Of a stretch of DNA of 64,000 nucleotides, positions 1 through 8,412 are shown in pieces (position 1 is the stretch's first letter; each line of letters begins with the position of its first letter). This stretch comes from Gammaproteobacteria bacterium (GTDB lineage: Bacteria; Pseudomonadota; Gammaproteobacteria; Xanthomonadales; SZUA-36): assembly GCA_030426265.1 (NCBI GenBank), contig JAUHYP010000003.1, forward strand, positions 62,001 through 126,000. Reading direction: 5' to 3'. The position numbers and the translations under genes were made by a program. The notes under the pieces were generated by a model, which worked only from the letters and a program-made list of their open reading frames with translations, was not told where the DNA came from and searched no databases.

Positions 1-2017
1 CCGTGCGGCGTTCCCTGAGGCGCGCCACCCACTTGGCCGGCTCGAAGTACTGCACCTGGGAGTCGTGCAGGCCGGTGGTGACCAGCAGGTTGGGGTAGTC
101 CTGGGCACTGACGTTGTCGTAGGGCGAGTAGGACAGCATGTACTCGTAGGCGTCCTTCTCGTTGGGGTTGCCCCACTCGCGATACTCGCCCGTGGTGAGC
201 GGAATGGAATCGTCCAGCATGGTCGTGACGATGTCCACGAAAGGCACCGCCGCGATCACGCCGTCGTAGAGTTCCGGTGACAGGTTGACCACCACCCCCA
301 TCAGCAGGCCGCCGGCGCTGCCGCCCAGGGCGTAGGTGCGCTCGGGATCGATCACGCGTTCGGACTGCAGCGCCCTGGTCACGTCTATGAAGTCCGTGAA
401 GGTGTTCATCTTGTGCATCAGCCGCCCCTGTTCGTACCACTGCCGGCCGAGTTCCTGGCCACCGCGGATGTGGGCGATGGCGTAGACGAAGCCGCGGTCC
501 AGCAGGCTGATGACCGAGTTGCGGAACCAGGGGTCGGTGGAAGCCCCGTAGGAGCCATAGGCGTATTGCAGCGCCGGCGCCGAGCCGTCGAGTTTCGTGT
601 CCTTGTGCCAGGCCAGCGAGACGGGCACGCTCACACCGTCGCGCGCGGTGACCATGCGGCGGCCGGTGCGGTAGTTGGCGCTGTCGAAGTCCCCCAGTAC
701 GCGATCGGCCTTCATGAGCGTGGTCTGGCCGGTGGCGAGGTCGACGTCCCAGATCTGCCCCGGCGTGACCAGGCTGGAAAAGCCGTAGCGCAGGGTCTGC
801 GTGTCGGTGCGGGGGTTGGTGGACAACCACATCACGTAGGCTTCCTCGTTGGCCTCGAGGTAGCGGTCGACGCTGCCGTCCAGGGCCAGGGCGCGCACCT
901 TGCGCAGCCCGTCGGTGCGCTCCTCCAGCACCAGCCAGTCGTCGAAGGCCAGCAGGTCGCGAACCATCGCGTCCTCCCGGTGCGCCACGAGTTCCTTCCA
1001 CTTCGACGTGTCGGACGCGGTTTCGCGGGTGGCCTGCATCACGCGGAAATTCTCCGCCTCCCAGTTGGTACGGATGAAGAAGCGCCCACCCGCGTCGTCG
1101 ACCTCGTATTCGTGGCCGGTCTTGCGCGGCAGGAAGGGCTCGAAGGAACCCAGCGGATCGTCCGCGGCCAGCAACTGCACCTCGGTGGTGTCCGTGTTGC
1201 CGTGGCCCAGCATCAGCCAGTCTCCCGAACGGCTGCGCCAGACGGCGTTGTAGAAGGTGTTGTCCGCCTCCTCGTAGACCAGCACGTCCTCCGCCGGGTC
1301 CGTGCCCCGCTCATGGCGCATGAGGCGGTAGGCGAGCAGCGTTTCCGGGTGCTTGTCCAGGTAGAACAGGTACCGGCCGTCCGCGGACCAGGCCAGAGAA
1401 GCGGCCGCGTTGCCGATGACTTCGGGCAGGTACTCGCCGGTCTGCGTGTCCAGGATGCGGATGTCGTGGATGCGGCGGCTCAGGGTGTCCTCGGCAATGG
1501 CGACGTAGCGGTGGTCGTCGCTGACTTCGAGGTTGCCGAGGTCGTAGTAATCGTGGCCTTCGGCACGCTGGTTGGCGTCCACGAGGACGATCTCGTCCGC
1601 CTCCATGGTGCCCTTGCGGCGGGCGTAGACGGGATATTCCTTGCCGGGCTCGTAGCGGTAGTAGTACCACCAGCCGTCGTCCTCGTAGGGCACGGAGGAT
1701 TCGTCCGGGTCCAGGCGTCCCGTCATCTCGGAGTAGAGGGTGTCCTGGAGCGCCTTCGTGTGCGCCATTTCCTGCTCGAACCATGCGTTCTCGCGCTCGA
1801 GATGCGCCAGCACCTCGGGGTCCTCGCGATCGTCGTCGCGCAGCCAGAAGTAGTCGTCCACGCGCACGTGGTCGTGGATCTCGAGTTCCGTGGGTCGTCT
1901 GTCCGCCATTGGTTCTTCAATGCCCTGGAGTACGGGTTTCGTGTCGTCGCCGATCACCGGGGTGGCGGCGCAGGAAGCCGCCATGAGGCCGGCGGCGAGC
2001 AGGGTCCGGGTTCGCAT
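1..2017 (-). CDS. ptrB: Oligopeptidase B (S9A serine peptidase), 3' end beyond the window
   Basis: Serine endopeptidase that cleaves short peptides after basic residues. About 672 residues are visible. An N-terminal beta-propeller is followed by an alpha/beta-hydrolase domain with the nucleophile motif GGSAGG (Ser567) and the acid residue in GLHDSQVQ (Asp652); the catalytic His lies past the window edge. Counted from the inner ATG at 1909 these become 531 and 616, almost exactly the E. coli PtrB positions. The extra 36 residues from the ATG at 2017 form a hydrophobic leader with a Cys after AAS, so export or a lipoprotein anchor is plausible. The gene is divergent from the HTTM gene. Family assignment is firm; the start choice and location are inferred. 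Confidence 0.93.
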   Translation of the reverse strand, partial: MRTRTLLAAGLMAASCAATPVIGDDTKPVLQGIEEPMADRRPTELEIHDHVRVDDYFWLRDDDREDPEVLAHLERENAWFEQEMAHTKALQDTLYSEMTGRLDPDESSVPYEDDGWWYYYRYEPGKEYPVYARRKGTMEADEIVLVDANQRAEGHDYYDLGNLEVSDDHRYVAIAEDTLSRRIHDIRILDTQTGEYLPEVIGNAAASLAWSADGRYLFYLDKHPETLLAYRLMRHERGTDPAEDVLVYEEADNTFYNAVWRSRSGDWLMLGHGNTDTTEVQLLAADDPLGSFEPFLPRKTGHEYEVDDAGGRFFIRTNWEAENFRVMQATRETASDTSKWKELVAHREDAMVRDLLAFDDWLVLEERTDGLRKVRALALDGSVDRYLEANEEAYVMWLSTNPRTDTQTLRYGFSSLVTPGQIWDVDLATGQTTLMKADRVLGDFDSANYRTGRRMVTARDGVSVPVSLAWHKDTKLDGSAPALQYAYGSYGASTDPWFRNSVISLLDRGFVYAIAHIRGGQELGRQWYEQGRLMHKMNTFTDFIDVTRALQSERVIDPERTYALGGSAGGLLMGVVVNLSPELYDGVIAAVPFVDIVTTMLDDSIPLTTGEYREWGNPNEKDAYEYMLSYSPYDNVSAQDYPNLLVTTGLHDSQVQYFEPAKWVARLRERRT

Positions 2018-2071
2018 GGTGCGGACGCCTCGTGACTTGGAGGGCGATAATATAGCGCAGCCCAGCGCGGG

Positions 2072-2077
2072 TATACT
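2072..2077 (+). promoter_or_regulatory. Possible sigma70 -10 box of the HTTM-DCC pair
   Basis: TATACT lies 22 bases before the ATG at 2100, in the divergent gap between ptrB and the HTTM gene. No good -35 hexamer is seen 17 bases upstream. The same TATACTG string recurs upstream of glmU and of the amidohydrolase gene. Weak evidence. Confidence 0.3.
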
Positions 2078-2099
2078 GGCCGGCAAGGGGACCCATGAA

Positions 2100-3524
2100 A
2101 TGAACCGCCTTCGCCGTTACCTGTTCCGCGAGGTCGACGCCAGTTCGCTGGCAGTCTTCCGCATGGGCTTTGGCCTCATCATGGTGGTCGAGTCCCTGCG
2201 CTACCTGTTCAAGTTCTGTATCCAGTGCTTCTGGAACGATCCACCGTTCCTGTTCAAGTACTGGGGCTTCGCCTGGGTCCACCCCTTGCCGGCCCCGGGC
2301 ATGGACCTGCTCTGGATCGCCCTGGGCCTGCTCGGCGTGGGCATCACCCTGGGCTGGCGCTACCGGTTCTGCATGGTGACGTTCACTCTCGCCTTCATCT
2401 ACTCCTTCCTGCAGGACCAGGCGCTGTACCTGAATCATTTCTACCTGGTGATCCTGTTCGCCGTCCTGATGTGCTTCGTGCCGGCCAACCGGTACATGGC
2501 CCTGGATGCCCGCCGCCGGCCGGAGATCGCCAGCCCCCGGATTCCCTTCTGGCCGATCTTCCTGCTGGGCGCCCAGCTGGAGATCGTCCTGATCTGGGCC
2601 GGCCTGGTGAAGATCAATCCCGACTGGCTCAACCTCGAACCGCTCGGCATGTGGCTGGCGGTGCGCTCGGACATGGCCCTGGTCGGCCCGCTGTTCCTCC
2701 AGAAGTGGGCCGTGGCGCTGGGCGCCTATGGCGTCATCGCACTGCACCTGGTGGGCGCGCCGTTGTTGTTGTTCCGGCGCACTCGGCTGCCGGTGCTGTG
2801 CATCTACGCGTCCTTTCACGTGCTGAACCACTTCGTGTTCAACATCGGAATCTTTCCCTGGTTCACCCTGTTCGCCAGCCTGCTGCTGTTCGACCCGGAC
2901 TGGCCCAAGCAGGTGTTTGCGCGGCTTCGCCGGGCCTGGCCGATTTTCCGTGACGAGGTGTTCCTGCCCGTGGCGGAGCGCTTCGACCCGGCGCACGTTC
3001 CCCGCCCGCCGGCGCCCGCCTTGCTGGTGGCGGGCATGGCCATCTGGCTGCTGGTCCAGGCCCTGTTTCCGATGCGCCACTGGTTCATGCCGGGGGACGT
3101 GGCCTGGAACGAAGCGGGGCACCGATTCGCCTGGCGCATGAAGCTGCGTGACAAGGACGGCCAGGCCCGCTTCACCCTGAGGGATGCATCGGGCGCCGAA
3201 CAGCGCGTTTCCCTTCCACGCTTCATCAACCGCAACCAGGCCGAGGAAATGGCCTGCAAGCCGGACATGCTGCTGCAGTTCGCCCACCATGTCGCGGCGG
3301 TTCACCGGGCGGAGGGGGACAACCCCGTGGGGGTGTACGCGGACGTCGCCTGCCGTCTGAACGGCCGGCCGCCGCAGCGATTCATCGACCCGGACGTCAA
3401 CCTGCTCGAGGAGTCGCGCCGTTTCGGCGCCTATCCCTGGGTGTTGCCACTGACCACGCCGTTGCCCGACCCCTGGCTGGGCGGGCGGCTGGAGCGCGCG
3501 GAGGTGGCGCGTGGCAACGAGTGA
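2100..3524 (+). CDS. HTTM-domain (vitamin K gamma-carboxylase-like) membrane protein
   Basis: A 474-residue multi-pass membrane protein. The N-terminal part carries several hydrophobic helices and the aromatic-rich pattern of the HTTM domain, which is related to vitamin K-dependent gamma-glutamyl carboxylase (NHFYLVILFAVLMCFVP near residue 115, then a KINPDWL segment). The C-terminal ~110 residues look soluble. The ATG at 2100 is chosen because the protein then begins MNRLRRYLF just ahead of the first helix; an ATG 5 bases earlier is out of frame. It overlaps the downstream DCC gene by 14 bp, so the two are probably co-translated. The substrate is unknown, and bacterial HTTM proteins need not be carboxylases. 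Confidence 0.82.
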   Translation: MNRLRRYLFREVDASSLAVFRMGFGLIMVVESLRYLFKFCIQCFWNDPPFLFKYWGFAWVHPLPAPGMDLLWIALGLLGVGITLGWRYRFCMVTFTLAFIYSFLQDQALYLNHFYLVILFAVLMCFVPANRYMALDARRRPEIASPRIPFWPIFLLGAQLEIVLIWAGLVKINPDWLNLEPLGMWLAVRSDMALVGPLFLQKWAVALGAYGVIALHLVGAPLLLFRRTRLPVLCIYASFHVLNHFVFNIGIFPWFTLFASLLLFDPDWPKQVFARLRRAWPIFRDEVFLPVAERFDPAHVPRPPAPALLVAGMAIWLLVQALFPMRHWFMPGDVAWNEAGHRFAWRMKLRDKDGQARFTLRDASGAEQRVSLPRFINRNQAEEMACKPDMLLQFAHHVAAVHRAEGDNPVGVYADVACRLNGRPPQRFIDPDVNLLEESRRFGAYPWVLPLTTPLPDPWLGGRLERAEVARGNE

Positions 3525-3915
3525 ATCCGTGGACGGGGTGGTGATCTACTACGACGGCGAATGCCCCGTGTGCAATCACTGGGTGGCCGGGTTGCGCCTG
3601 AAGACCGCCGCGGGCGCGCTGCGCCTGGTGGACGCCCGCGAGGGCGGAGACGAAGTGCGGGCCCTGCAGGCGGCCGGCTACGATCTCGACCGGGAAATGG
3701 TCGTGCGCATCGGTGATCGCACCCTGTCCGGCGCCGAAGCGATGCATGGTTTGACCTTGATGGCGACCCCTTCTGGCCTGTTCAACCGGGGGGTGTACCA
3801 TTTGTTTCGTTCGGAGCGGCTCTCGCGTCCCCTCTACCCCGTGTTCCGGGGGATGCGCCTGGCACTGCTCCGGCTTTTGGGAAGGTCGCGTATCAATGGC
3901 GTTCAGGGCGAATGA
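3511..3915 (+). CDS. DCC-family thiol-disulfide oxidoreductase-like protein (DUF393)
   Basis: A 134-residue protein with the DCC-family signature YDGECPVC at residues 14-21, giving a thioredoxin-like CxxC pair (Cys18, Cys21). The rest fits the family: VDARE strand, aliphatic C-terminal helices and about 130 residues. It starts at a GTG inside the end of the HTTM gene (14 bp overlap). DCC domains occur next to, or fused with, HTTM domains in many bacteria, so the two products likely act together, perhaps in redox handling of a quinone or membrane substrate. That role is inference; the family call is firm. Confidence 0.85.
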   Translation: MATSESVDGVVIYYDGECPVCNHWVAGLRLKTAAGALRLVDAREGGDEVRALQAAGYDLDREMVVRIGDRTLSGAEAMHGLTLMATPSGLFNRGVYHLFRSERLSRPLYPVFRGMRLALLRLLGRSRINGVQGE

Positions 3916-3976
3916 ATTGTCAGGCGACCGATGTTCTGAGAAAATAACCCGCACTGGGGAAGGGAGAGAAACCATA

Positions 3977-4744
3977 ATGAATTTAATGACTAAGACGGGC
4001 AAATTGCTGTTGTGCCTGACGCTCGCGGCCCTGTCGGCGCAGGCCGCCGCCCAGCAGGTCTTCTTCGGTGAGGATCTGAACACAGGGGGAACCGCCAGGC
4101 TGGCCGCCACACCCAACGCCGATGCGGCGCGGGACGCGTTCCTCGCCCGACTGGCCCAGGCCGGCACCAACACGGGCGGCGCGGGCACCGAGGACTTCGA
4201 CGGATTCTCGGATGGCACCACGGCGCCGCTGCCCCTCACGTTCGGGGCAGTGACCGCAACCGTCACGGCGCCGTCCGGTATGGTCACCGCCGTGGCGCCC
4301 GGCGCCAACAACGGTGACGGTCGGTACCCGATCTCTGATCCCAACTACTGGGACACGGACCGGGAGTTCACCATCGACTTCTCGTCGCCGGTCCAGGGGC
4401 TGGGCTTTTACGGCATCGACATGGGCGACTTCCAGGGGCGTCTGTCGTTGCGGTTGACCCTCGAGGGCGGCGGATTCCAGGACGTCGATATCGCTCACAC
4501 GCTGGGCGCCGATGACGCCTCTGTCCTGTACTTCGGCGTGGTCAGCCTGACCCCCATCACCTCGGCCACGTTCGCGAACTCCACGAGCCTGGACGTGTTC
4601 GGTTTCGATGACTTCACGGTGCAGCAGTTCGTACCCCTGTCGGGGAGTGGTGACGCCAGCATCCCGAGCCTGTCCCACCTCGGCCTGATCCTGATGGCCG
4701 GTCTGCTGGGCCTGTTTGGCCTCGTGTCCGCACGACGCAGCTGA
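3977..4744 (+). CDS. Secreted protein with IPTL-CTERM sorting signal
   Basis: A 255-residue exported protein. The signal peptide ends near AAAQQ (about residue 25). The body is a beta-rich domain with an EDFDGF motif and a FGFDDFTV stretch, the style common in PEP-CTERM-type cargo. The tail is IPSLSHLG, then a hydrophobic helix, then RRS: the tripartite IPTL-CTERM signal read by a dedicated exosortase-like enzyme. A good ribosome-binding site (GGGAGAGA) precedes the ATG. A strong terminator follows, so it is probably monocistronic. The body function is unknown. A second protein with the same tail type lies at 36.8-37.8 kb. Confidence 0.82.
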   Translation: MNLMTKTGKLLLCLTLAALSAQAAAQQVFFGEDLNTGGTARLAATPNADAARDAFLARLAQAGTNTGGAGTEDFDGFSDGTTAPLPLTFGAVTATVTAPSGMVTAVAPGANNGDGRYPISDPNYWDTDREFTIDFSSPVQGLGFYGIDMGDFQGRLSLRLTLEGGGFQDVDIAHTLGADDASVLYFGVVSLTPITSATFANSTSLDVFGFDDFTVQQFVPLSGSGDASIPSLSHLGLILMAGLLGLFGLVSARRS

Positions 4745-4762
4745 TCCCGGATTCGTCTCCGG

Positions 4763-4792
4763 TAAAAACCCCGGCCTGGCCGGGGTTTTTTA
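4763..4792 (+). terminator. Rho-independent terminator after the first IPTL-CTERM gene
   Basis: A 7-bp GC stem (4769-4775 with 4779-4785, loop CTG) is followed by six T and preceded by five A. It sits 24 bases after the stop codon. Confidence 0.9.
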
Positions 4793-5190
4793 CTGGATGA
4801 CCCTCGAATTCCCCCTTAATCCGGCAGGGATTGCTTGCAATTTTCTGGTGCTGATTTAAGGTGGGGAAAGGCAACAGCTCTGAAGACTGCAGGTCAGCTG
4901 CGCAGATCGGACGGCTTCGTCGTCTTGGTTTCCCGTAAATACAAAGGCTTGGGAATCCAAAGGGGATACAAAGCACGACCACTGTATAGGGGTCCTCGCA
5001 AGAGGAGGCTCTGTCGACTTCGGGGATACTGGGCCATTCTGGTTTCGCGAGAGCGAAGGATTGGGGGCCGGAAATCCAGAACCGCACATTGACGCGCGGG
5101 ATGGGCTGCGGCAAATAAGAATGACCTAAAAGGGACGCCACTCGGCGCGCAATCCTGTGCGCCGCAGCCATTTCAAGGACGACAGCTTTC
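4793..5190 (+). other. Long intergenic leader before the collagen-like gene, probably structured
   Basis: About 400 bases without a convincing gene. It contains a 12-bp palindrome at 4830-4841 (ATTGC-TT-GCAAT). It also has a near-perfect 9-bp stem around 4927-4963 and a TCCTC/GAGGA hairpin with a GCAA tetraloop near 4993-5006. A nested hairpin near 5037-5083 has TTCGC/GCGAA capped by a GAGA loop and an outer TTCTGG/CCAGAA pairing. Two copies of ATACAAAG flank this area. The second sits in GGGGATACAAAGC, which loosely resembles the GGGACGCAAAGC core of c-di-GMP-I riboswitches, but the rest of that fold was not found. An 85-codon open frame here has no family resemblance and is discounted. Confidence 0.4.
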
Positions 5191-5195
5191 AGGAG
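5191..5195 (+). promoter_or_regulatory. Ribosome-binding site deciding the GTG start of the collagen-like gene
   Basis: AGGAG lies 6 bases before the GTG at 5202. It supports that start over an upstream ATG at 5157, and the protein then begins directly with a signal peptide. Confidence 0.7.
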
Positions 5196-5201
5196 TTTGT
5201 C

Positions 5202-7718
5202 GTGAGCACCAATACCCACCGGGCCTCGCCCCGACCCAGCACTCTGCTGGCTGGCGGATGTTTCCTGCTGGCCGCCCTTTCGCAGAGCGTCCTGGCCGAC
5301 ACCCAGATCATGGAAGTCCAGCTGGCGAAGGACGGAGAGCGCAATTTCCTCCAGCCCAACCAACTGGTCATTTGGGGAACCGATTTCTACGGCCCCAGTG
5401 GCGAGGATCCGTCCATCTACCTGGGCACCTGGCCCACTGTGCTCGACGTCTCCGCCAGCCAGTCGCTGTGTACCGTTCCGCCTTCCCCGCCGCTCGACCC
5501 ATCGGGAGTCGACTGCATCGTCGTCGATCTGCCCCAGGTGGATTCCGGCGGTGAACCGGTGGTTCCCTGGGGGGACTACCTCCTCAAGATGGTCGCCGTC
5601 AGCACGGACGACTGCAGGCAGGTGGCGATCGACGACTGGTATCTCGACGGCGCTTCCGACAGCGGTACCGAAACCGGCCGTCGTGACGACGATGACGATG
5701 GAGGCGGTGACGACGACTGCACGAATGCCGCTTACGCCGGTGGCGACACCACTGAAACGTGGTGGTGGAAAGGGGGTGGCGACGACGACGATGACGACGG
5801 CGATCACGATGACGGTGGCGATGATGACGACGGCGGCGACGGCAACCCCACGAATGTTGCGCTCTACGACCTGACCATCGTCAGTCTCGAACTGGCGGAA
5901 GGTCCCCCGGGCGCTGACGGTCCTCCGGGCCCGCAAGGTCCCCAGGGTGAACCGGGTCCACAGGGTGATCCTGGTGCGCCGGGCGACCCCGGCCCACAGG
6001 GGCCGGCAGGTGAAACCGGACCGGAGGGCCCGATCGGTCCCGAAGGCCCGACCGGCCCTGCAGGTCCTGAAGGTCCGCAGGGCGCCCAGGGCGAGGCGGG
6101 TCCGCAGGGTCCGGCAGGTCCACAAGGCGAGGCGGGTCCGGAAGGCCCGGCGGGTCCCACCGGTCCGGCAGGCCCCGAAGGCCCGACCGGTCCGGCAGGA
6201 CCACAGGGTCCGACCGGTGCCGCGGGCGAACAGGGTCCGGCAGGCCCGGCAGGCGCCCAGGGCCCGGCGGGTCCGGCAGGTGATACAGGTCCGGCAGGTC
6301 CGGCGGGTGCCACAGGCCCGGCAGGTCCAGCAGGCCCGGCGGGCGACACAGGCCCGGCCGGTCCGGCAGGTGATACGGGTCCGGCAGGTCCGGCGGGTCC
6401 GGCAGGTGCCCAGGGCCCGGCCGGTCCGGCAGGTGATACGGGTCCGGCAGGTCCGGCAGGTGATACGGGTCCGGCAGGCCCGGCGGGTGCCGCGGGTCCC
6501 CAGGGTCCGGCGGGTGACACCGGTCCGGCGGGTCCGGCCGGCGCCACAGGCCCGGCAGGTCCGGCAGGTCCAGCAGGACCGGCAGGCGATACAGGTCCGG
6601 CGGGTCCGGCAGGTGCCCAGGGCCCGGCCGGTCCGGCAGGTGATACGGGTCCGGCAGGTCCGGCGGGTGCCGCAGGTCCCCAGGGTCCGGCGGGTGACAC
6701 CGGTCCGGCGGGTCCGGCCGGCGCCACAGGCCCGGCAGGTCCGGCAGGTCCAGCAGGACCGGCGGGCGACACAGGCCCGGCCGGTCCGGCAGGTGTCCAG
6801 GGCCCAGCCGGTCCCGCAGGTCCCCAGGGTCCGGCGGGCGACACCGGTCCGGCTGGGCCGGCGGGCGCAACGGGTCCGGCGGGCCCGGCAGGCCCCCAGG
6901 GCCCTACCGGCGATCCGGGCAACACCGGTCCCGCGGGTCCCGCGGGTCCGGCAGGTCCACAGGGCCTCACGGGTCCGGCGGGTCCCACCGGTCCCCAGGG
7001 ACCTCAGGGTCTGCCGGGGGCGAATGGACTGGATGGAGCCGACGGTGGCCAGGGTCCGGCGGGTCCCGCAGGTCCTGCAGGCCCCGCAGGCCCGGCCGGT
7101 CCCCAGGGCCCGGCTGGCCCCGAGGGCCCCGAAGGCCCGCCCGGCGCCACCAATCCGTCCCTGGTGACGATGTGCTTTGCCGATACCCGCGAGATTCGCG
7201 TGGACATCCAGCAGGGGACCGTCGACACGCTGGTTGCGGAGATCGTGAGCGCCAATGATTCGGGTGGTCGTTACTACGGCATCGGGGATTCGGCGGCGCC
7301 ACAAATCAGTGGCCCGCGGCCTTTCCTGCAGGTGGCTGTGCCACAGCCTTTCCCGGACGGCTGGCGCATCACGCGCCTGGTCGCCAAGGCACGCGGCTCG
7401 GATGCGTCCTGGGAAGGCCGGGTGACGGTGCGCACGCAGGAGCCGGACGGTTTCCCGGCGGTCGGTGACGTGGTTCCCGGCGGATTCGTCTGCGAACTGT
7501 CGGGTGCCAATGGCGGCGTCTATGACGTGTGCGAGGTGGAGGGAGACTATCCGCTGTACAACATGCAGCTGCTGGGTCTCCATGCCCTGTCGACCAAGGA
7601 GACAGGCACGTCCGACCTCACGCGCGTCTCCGGCTGCATCACGATCGAGCCGCCCCTCGAGGAAGAGGTGGTCGTTCAGGCGGAATCATTGACCGTACTG
7701 AGGCCCACCCTGGACTGA
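5202..7718 (+). CDS. Secreted collagen-like (Gly-X-Y repeat) protein with Asp-rich linker
   Basis: An 838-residue exported protein. The signal peptide ends near SVLA (residue ~33). Residues ~34-155 resemble an IPT/TIG-type beta-sandwich ([20 protein letters not shown]). Residues ~160-217 are rich in Asp and Gly, with runs of five and six Asp. About 139 uninterrupted Gly-X-Y triplets follow (DNA 5901-7151), mostly GPA, GDT, GPQ and GAT. A ~188-residue C-terminal domain with Cys in MCFAD, FVCEL, DVCEV and SGCIT could trimerise the helix. There is no anchor motif, so it is probably released or held by the C-terminal domain. It stands alone between two terminators. A collagen triple helix is likely from the repeat; adhesion, matrix or spore-coat-like roles are open. 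Confidence 0.9.
5901..7151 (+). repeat. Collagen Gly-X-Y coding repeat with an internal 180-bp duplication
   Basis: A 9-bp-period repeat coding for about 139 triplets with no break. Inside it, bases 6481-6600 and 6661-6780 match at all but about five positions, showing a 180-bp (60-residue, 20-triplet) tandem duplication. Copies of this kind are prone to slippage and length variation. Confidence 0.9.
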
Positions 7719-7738
7719 CGGATTCCCGTACACAGGCT

Positions 7739-7826
7739 GATGCCGGCCCCATCGGGCCGGCATCACCGGGAAACCCTGAAGTCCGTTGTTCGTGAAGATG
7801 CCGGCCCCGAAACGGGCCGGCTTTTT
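7739..7826 (+). terminator. Two similar hairpins, the second a rho-independent terminator
   Basis: The first hairpin (7739-7764) is a perfect 11-bp stem beginning GATGCCGGCCC with no T run. The second (7800-7821) reuses GCCGGCCC with a CGAAAC loop and is followed by five T. They terminate the collagen-like gene and face the convergent YceI gene. Reuse of the stem suggests local duplication. Confidence 0.8.
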
Positions 7827-7836
7827 CATGCCCGGT

Positions 7837-8412
7837 TCACTGCCGCAGCGTGAGCCGGAACGTCACCGGTACTGCCGGGCTGATGGCCGGCAGACCGGCG
7901 ACTTCACGCAATTTCTCCACGCCCGTAAGCAGGCCGAGTTGGTCGGCGTTCACGACCATCGGCTCGCTGCTGGTCACCAGCAACGTCCTGTCGTCCAGGC
8001 GCGCCACCGAGGCGGTGACCGTCAGGTTGAGTTCGGTTCCGTGCAGTGTGAGCTGTGCTTCAGAAACTGTTTCGGTCTGCGCACCGGGCTCCAGGGCCTG
8101 CAGGGGCGACAGGTCCAGGCGCGCCGTGACCGTCGCTTCGGGATACTCCGTGGTCTGGAAGAGCAGTTCGCGCATTCGCTCGTCACGGATCTCGATGCCG
8201 GTATCCACGCTGTCCAGCATGATGGCGAGGCGGAACTCCCCATCCTCCGCCAGCGTGCCGGAAAGTTCGCCGAATCGATGCACTTCCGCCACCTGTCCCG
8301 CCTTGGTGGAGACGAAGGACAGGCGGGATTCCTCGTTGACCACGGTCCAGTCCGCAAGGGCGGCGGCCGGGAGGCCCAGGGCGAAACAGGGCAGGAACAG
8401 CTTGCGGATCAT
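7837..8412 (-). CDS. YceI-family periplasmic lipid-binding protein
   Basis: A 191-residue protein with a clear signal peptide ending ALA before Asp-Trp-Thr. The mature part follows the YceI beta-barrel pattern: ESRLSFVSTKAGQVAEVHRF at the start, then LDSVDTGIEIRDERM, FQTTEYPEATVTAR and LTLHG. YceI proteins bind isoprenoid or other amphiphilic chains in a lipocalin-like barrel. The ATG at 8412 is preferred over a start about 100 bases upstream because the signal peptide begins there. It is convergent with the collagen-like gene and divergent from the redoxin gene; its role in that group is unproven. Confidence 0.88.
   Translation of the reverse strand: MIRKLFLPCFALGLPAAALADWTVVNEESRLSFVSTKAGQVAEVHRFGELSGTLAEDGEFRLAIMLDSVDTGIEIRDERMRELLFQTTEYPEATVTARLDLSPLQALEPGAQTETVSEAQLTLHGTELNLTVTASVARLDDRTLLVTSSEPMVVNADQLGLLTGVEKLREVAGLPAISPAVPVTFRLTLRQ

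Follow-up and report, generated by a model that had tools for sequence, protein, structure and literature searches.

The stretch of DNA analysed here (64,000 nucleotides, hereafter the window) comes from a draft genome of 103 contigs and carries, on the + strand at 5202–7718, a genuine gene whose product is large, strongly acidic, probably secreted and built around a long stalk of the collagen type. As a bacterial surface fibre it is of an ordinary kind, but its Asp-rich linker is unusual, and a gene related to that of the human vitamin K-dependent carboxylase lies nearby. The open reading frame, read from the sequence, starts with a GTG codon and encodes a product of 838 aa. For the mature chain we calculate a pI of 4.05 and a charge of about -83 at pH 7. 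Both terminal domains are conserved in a congeneric genome. We consider it reasonably probable (about 0.6) that the product is an exported, trimeric surface or matrix protein with a collagen stalk, whose C-terminal domain would nucleate the trimer and which would work in a manner similar to Legionella Lcl.

Gene structure and domain layout of the acidic collagen-type protein

The GTG at 5202 is preceded, with a 6-base spacer, by a Shine-Dalgarno sequence recognized by eye (AGGAG, 5191–5195). An alternative in-frame GTG at 5157 was set aside because no such sequence could be seen in front of it by eye. Nevertheless, the translation of 5157–5201 resembles its counterpart in the congener G002, which leaves room for a longer protein. 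Antisense open reading frames across the repeat, as well as Pfam collagen matches on the - strand, can be taken as mirror images of the repeat. The product is organized as follows:

5202..5297, + strand: signal-peptide-like N-terminus, 32 aa (hydrophobic stretch, cleavage inferred by eye between SVLA and DTQ)
5298..5654, + strand: TIG-like N-terminal domain, 119 aa (sub-threshold Pfam TIG, alignment with three relatives, weak fold matches of Ig, CopC and IPT type)
5655..5900, + strand: Asp/Gly-rich linker with a TWWW-GGG motif, 82 aa (composition)
5901..7151, + strand: unbroken Gly-X-Y tract of 139 triplets (sequence count, Pfam Collagen)
7152..7715, + strand: beta-rich C-terminal domain, 188 aa, containing four Cys and a short tail with Glu (sequence, relatives, low-confidence model)

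A preliminary description had placed about 139 unbroken Gly-X-Y triplets between an N-domain followed by an Asp/Gly stretch and a Cys-containing C-domain, and the count is exactly 139. The tract scores 202 bits against the Pfam Collagen model (cut-off 27.2), and a run of this kind does not arise by chance. GPA accounts for 65 of the 139 triplets; Pro occupies position X in 98 and Ala position Y in 70. The tract contains 17 Asp and 12 Glu but zero Lys and zero Arg, which leaves it without the oppositely charged pairs described as stabilising bacterial collagens. Within the gene lie near-repeats of up to 180 bp and tandem repeats (27, 90 and 180 bp and further ones), the latter suggesting that the tract expanded by duplication. 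Because of these internal near-repeats and of the draft state of the assembly, the number of triplets is assembly-dependent and the length of the tract may vary.

The linker includes 25 Asp and 16 Gly in its 82 aa. With the length of the product and the signal-peptide-like start seen by eye, this agrees with the earlier proposal of a large, probably secreted collagen-like protein with an acidic linker. In G002, the corresponding linker has 28 Asp in 79 aa and keeps both the TWWW-GGG motif and poly-Asp. The linker ends with YDLTI plus seven further residues, after which the collagen tract starts.

The N-domain had been described as IPT/TIG-like. A domain is indeed present, and its three Cys are invariant in the four rows of an alignment of the window protein with three relatives, but the assignment to TIG is weak: the Pfam TIG model gives 13.3 and 15.5 bits and does not reach its gathering cut-off of 20.9. 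We therefore use only 'TIG-like' as a name. The TIG scores of the relatives L011 (17.6 bits) and L012 (17.4 bits) are also sub-threshold, and only L035 passes (24.2 bits). A model of the domain built from four sequences (pLDDT 49.5) shows weak matches to a Met-receptor fragment (7.1), CopC (6.5) and an EBF3 IPT/TIG chain (5.4); it is compatible with a TIG-like base but no proof of one. A PDB sequence search with the N-domain returned no match at E up to 10.

The C-domain is 53% identical to the 3′ part of the G002 gene (L015). Its four Cys are present in all three of the sequences aligned, one of which is a distantly related fragment from G022 (L044; 23% identity, pair E 3e-6) that the genome search with the C-domain missed and that came to light when collagen loci were read. 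No Pfam model exceeds its own cut-off on the C-domain, which thus has no named family, and a PDB sequence search found no match at E up to 1; five rows from a second PDB search (E 0.62–1.1) were taken as chance. The model, built from a single sequence with low confidence (pLDDT 52.1), is all-beta. Among the matches to solved structures listed, at Z 5.9 to 7.7, are jelly rolls of TNF ligands, C1q and viruses: a viral capsid (7.7), 4-1BBL (7.2), APRIL (6.9), C1qA (6.6) and a BclA-type tip (6.4), all at values of Z under 8 that may reflect a common arrangement only. Lcl-CTD does not appear among the rows listed, which carries no weight against it. That the C-domain could trimerise the helix, as the preliminary description had proposed, is plausible from the weak TNF/C1q-type matches, although viral jelly rolls stand alongside them in this low-confidence model.

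Relatives in the family and known bacterial collagens

We searched 61 genomes, that of the window included, at E up to 0.001. The N-domain was matched in five of them, one match (L013) being probably due to chance, and the C-domain in two. Wider searches, A1 across 398 genomes of the phylum and A4 across 369 genomes of the class, matched the window's own genome only. The homologue search suggested earlier for both terminal domains found each of them in the congener G002, along with more distant relatives. In G002 contig C37 carries the 5′ part of the gene and C58 its 3′ part, each contig breaking off inside the repeat; we infer that the pieces belong to a single gene and treat them as such. 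G002 retains the N-domain, the linker and the C-domain, with 64% protein identity over N-domain plus linker. Changes between the two species at codon positions 1, 2 and 3 number 57, 46 and 106 in the 220 codons of N-domain and linker, and 59, 55 and 105 in 175 codons of the C-domain. This excess at third positions indicates that the + strand is coding and that selection acts on the protein.

The less close relatives L011 (G023) and L012 (G022) show an N-domain, DUF7467 and collagen, in that order. Their N-domains are 43% and 35% identical to that of the window protein, and DUF7467 (67.1 and 59.6 bits, respectively) occupies the place of the Asp linker. L013 was rejected as a relative: at 34% identity, the match contains one internal stop and lies opposite a long frame that looks, by eye, like a TonB receptor. 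In L035 (G013), a single protein with a signal-peptide-like start combines TIG, Collagen (49.9 bits) and phage Tail Collar (100.5 bits). YDLTI precedes the collagen tract in the window protein, L011, L012 and L035. As opposed to the other three, L035 has neither DUF7467 nor an Asp linker, ends in the Collar domain, and carries an N-domain that is not detectably close to that of the window protein. Its TIG piece matched one of 369 class genomes (L062, weakly) but not the window's genome, at E up to 1e-4.

Seventeen of the 39 family genomes gave collagen-family matches, 16 of them over the cut-off, although several of these matches consist only of Gly-rich Cys repeats or low-complexity repeats. 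Runs of 30 triplets or more occur in at least 8 of the 39 genomes, with longest runs of 139 (G000, the window's own genome), 79 (G031), 67 (G002), 54 (G453), 40 (G033), 37 (G022), 36 (G001) and 32 (G013); this is a lower bound, as only loci were read and some places with a collagen match have no locus of their own. Shorter longest runs were counted in G023 (20), G036 and G010 (18 each), G016 (17), G034 (15), G009 and G035 (13 each), G012 (12) and G017 (7). The protein therefore belongs to a local and varied collagen-like repertoire, and the rarity in this background assumed in the preliminary description is not borne out by these counts. L038, L039, L048 and L049 are small exported-looking proteins whose Cys repeats of the GEEGKCGEKG type set off the Pfam model for collagen; judged by eye, these proteins resemble precursors of metal-binding or modified peptides, not collagens. 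In L029 (G453), one open frame contains a collagen tract followed by repeats that appear Kelch-like by eye.

Legionella Lcl consists of a signal sequence, a collagen stalk and a C-terminal globular domain, as described in PMC6617341. The window protein shares this order, with a signal-like sequence, and also has a gammaproteobacterial host. However, the DUF1566 C-terminal domain of Lcl has no match in P0002 at E up to 1, and the Lcl model NF046116 scores 189.6 bits on the window protein, under its cut-off of 500 and with its best stretch inside the repeat; the window protein is therefore not a member of the Lcl family. In addition, the Lcl repeat contains Lys and Arg, which the window tract lacks, and the N-region of Lcl is a helical segment of 30 residues where the window protein has a TIG-like domain and an Asp linker. 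The streptococcal proteins Scl1 and Scl2 likewise have a long Gly-X-Y tract, with the corresponding NCBIfam SclA/SclB models remaining under cut-off on the window protein (NF038330, 155.6 of 400 bits; NF038329, 251.5 of 325 bits). Unlike streptococcal Scl, the window protein shows no LPXTG motif in its 838 aa, and no other anchor was seen in it. Burkholderia Bucl proteins are Gram-negative collagen-like proteins with non-collagenous regions, the associated domains given in PMC4565658 being outer-membrane efflux and solute-binding domains; compared by description, those of the window protein are different. Gram-negative collagens are candidate adhesins and biomaterials, and the window protein extends their range by an architecture with an acidic Asp linker and by a C-domain that belongs to no named family.

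Proposed function, upstream genes and alternative readings

In the reading that we favour, the chain would be exported by Sec, and three chains would associate through their beta-rich C-domains into a homotrimer. The 139-triplet tract could then zip into a rod of about 120 nm (417 residues; the rise of collagen is about 0.29 nm per residue), with the TIG-like N-domain and the flexible acidic linker facing the cell or a partner. Such a protein might act as an adhesin or as a spacer in the extracellular matrix. Judging from charge, and as a guess, the very acidic linker and stalk would probably respond to cations, by calcium bridging or aggregation. Points against this overall reading are the low confidence of both domain models, the lack of Lys and Arg in the tract, which also weakens the analogy with Lcl, the failure to see any anchor, and the negative promoter scan described below.

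Three genes lie upstream of the collagen gene on the same strand:

2121..3524 as searched, in an open reading frame at 1890–3524, + strand: HTTM and VKGC lumenal-domain protein, GGCX-like (Pfam, 259.4 and 140.5 bits)
3511..3915, + strand: DCC1-like thiol-disulfide oxidoreductase whose gene overlaps that for VKGC (PF04134, 48.5 bits, cut-off 27.8)
3974..4744, + strand: IPTL-CTERM protein with an exosortase-sorting tail (Pfam 26.8 bits, cut-off 20.8; TIGR04174 28.6 bits, cut-off 20.5)

The order VKGC, DCC1, IPTL-CTERM, collagen is the same in the window's genome and in G002, where the families were judged by likeness; identity to G002 is 78% for the VKGC protein and 59% for the IPTL protein. The two modules, VKGC and collagen, are neighbours in two congeners, which is as far as the comparison goes. 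VKGC is found in 4 of the 39 family genomes and the IPTL protein in 2. Elsewhere in the genome of the window, an XrtH exosortase is encoded at G000:C36:6018–6482 (197.3 bits, cut-off 86); we take XrtH to be the kind of exosortase that handles IPTL-CTERM tails. The VKGC protein matches human gamma-carboxylase chains of the PDB at E 9.4e-34. Equivalents of His160 and Lys218, residues with catalytic roles in GGCX, are kept, and Lys217 is replaced by Val (GGCX numbering obtained through a 31-residue offset between PDB chains).

This neighbourhood raises the question of whether the GGCX-like enzyme gamma-carboxylates Glu residues of the collagen, in its acidic C-terminal tail and tract, which would turn it into a bacterial collagen that carries Gla and binds calcium. 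The gene order common to the two congeners and the alignment of the enzyme with its retained residues point in this direction, as does G022, which has no match to the enzyme and whose distant C-domain relative stops before any Glu-rich tail. However, G015 (L058) and G021 (L059) have VKGC next to a DCC1-like gene (111 and 31.9 bits) but show no collagen match. A search of the draft genome for VKOR at E up to 0.001 came back empty, and the Glu tail is short and variable. The PDB carboxylase chain extends well beyond the matched part (57–514 of 758), and at 4765–4789 an inverted repeat with T's behind it, detected by eye, may separate the transcripts. Since the linked genomes are congeners, linkage may also reflect simple descent. 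We hold this modification to be very improbable, and give as little credence to the broader view in which the locus would do in a bacterium what Gla chemistry does in vertebrates, DCC1 acting as redox partner of the enzyme and the product being a calcium-gripping, disulfide-headed extracellular fibre. We know of no bacterial Gla protein, and a Gla collagen, if real, would be the first known to us. The neighbouring carboxylase offers a concrete and testable setting in which to ask for the substrates of bacterial GGCX homologues. According to PMC4555120, a Leptospira homologue is presumed to have been acquired by transfer.

The protein could alternatively belong to the matrix and bind calcium or mineral, with the Asp linker as its working part and the collagen as a mere spacer. 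Retention of the linker in G002, at the place where less close relatives have DUF7467, would fit such a role, whereas its occurrence in two congeneric species only, and the ease with which Asp runs arise, argue against it; we judge this rather unlikely. As collagen stalks occur in phage tail fibres, the gene might instead be of phage or prophage origin, and L035 of the same family does join TIG, a collagen tract and Tail Collar. On the other hand, the L035 host G013 has no match to the window N-domain at E up to 0.001 and the window genome none to the L035 piece. The N-domain had no tblastn match in 50,697 phage records, nor any in plasmids; no relative of the N- or C-domain was confirmed in viral contigs, neither P0001 nor P0002 matched a PHROG at E up to 1, and no phage family was seen among the eight neighbouring open reading frames examined. 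Like the signal-peptide-like start of the window protein, these absences count against a tail fibre, which we hold to be very improbable.

The 5′ leader and transcription signals

The collagen gene is preceded by a region that is also conserved in G002:

4863..5201, + strand: conserved 5′ leader (alignment to G002, fold prediction)

Conservation of the leader is at least equal to that of the adjoining coding region: 259 of 310 aligned bases are identical over 381 columns, compared with 255 of 336 over 407 columns for the N-domain coding sequence by the same method. Over 5128–5201, 67 of 74 bases are identical to G002, whereas 200 base shuffles gave a mean of 39 and a maximum of 45. A hairpin is predicted at 5179–5203, with the start codon at its foot and AGGAG, partly paired, further up the stem. 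It is predicted in both species, its base being ACGACA/UGUCGU in the window and CGACA/UGUCG in the stretch of G002 that was folded. A second predicted hairpin, GGCGCGCA, lies just upstream. The folding energy of the leader is unexceptional (z -1.03 to -1.89). Matches to the leader were found in 3 of the 39 family genomes, the window's own included; one of them (L054) spans 30 bases only, at E 0.006, and is probably due to chance. Rfam gave seven rows on 4700–5400, all within 4727–4842 and none at gathering score. Translational control of the collagen gene through this leader is a fair inference from the two species.

No sigma-70-like promoter was found in a scan of 4700–7900. Over the same interval, three terminator-like sites were detected, against a shuffle mean of 1.8; the inverted repeat at 4765–4789 is not in this list, and one of the three sites, at 7800–7821, lies just 3′ of the collagen gene.
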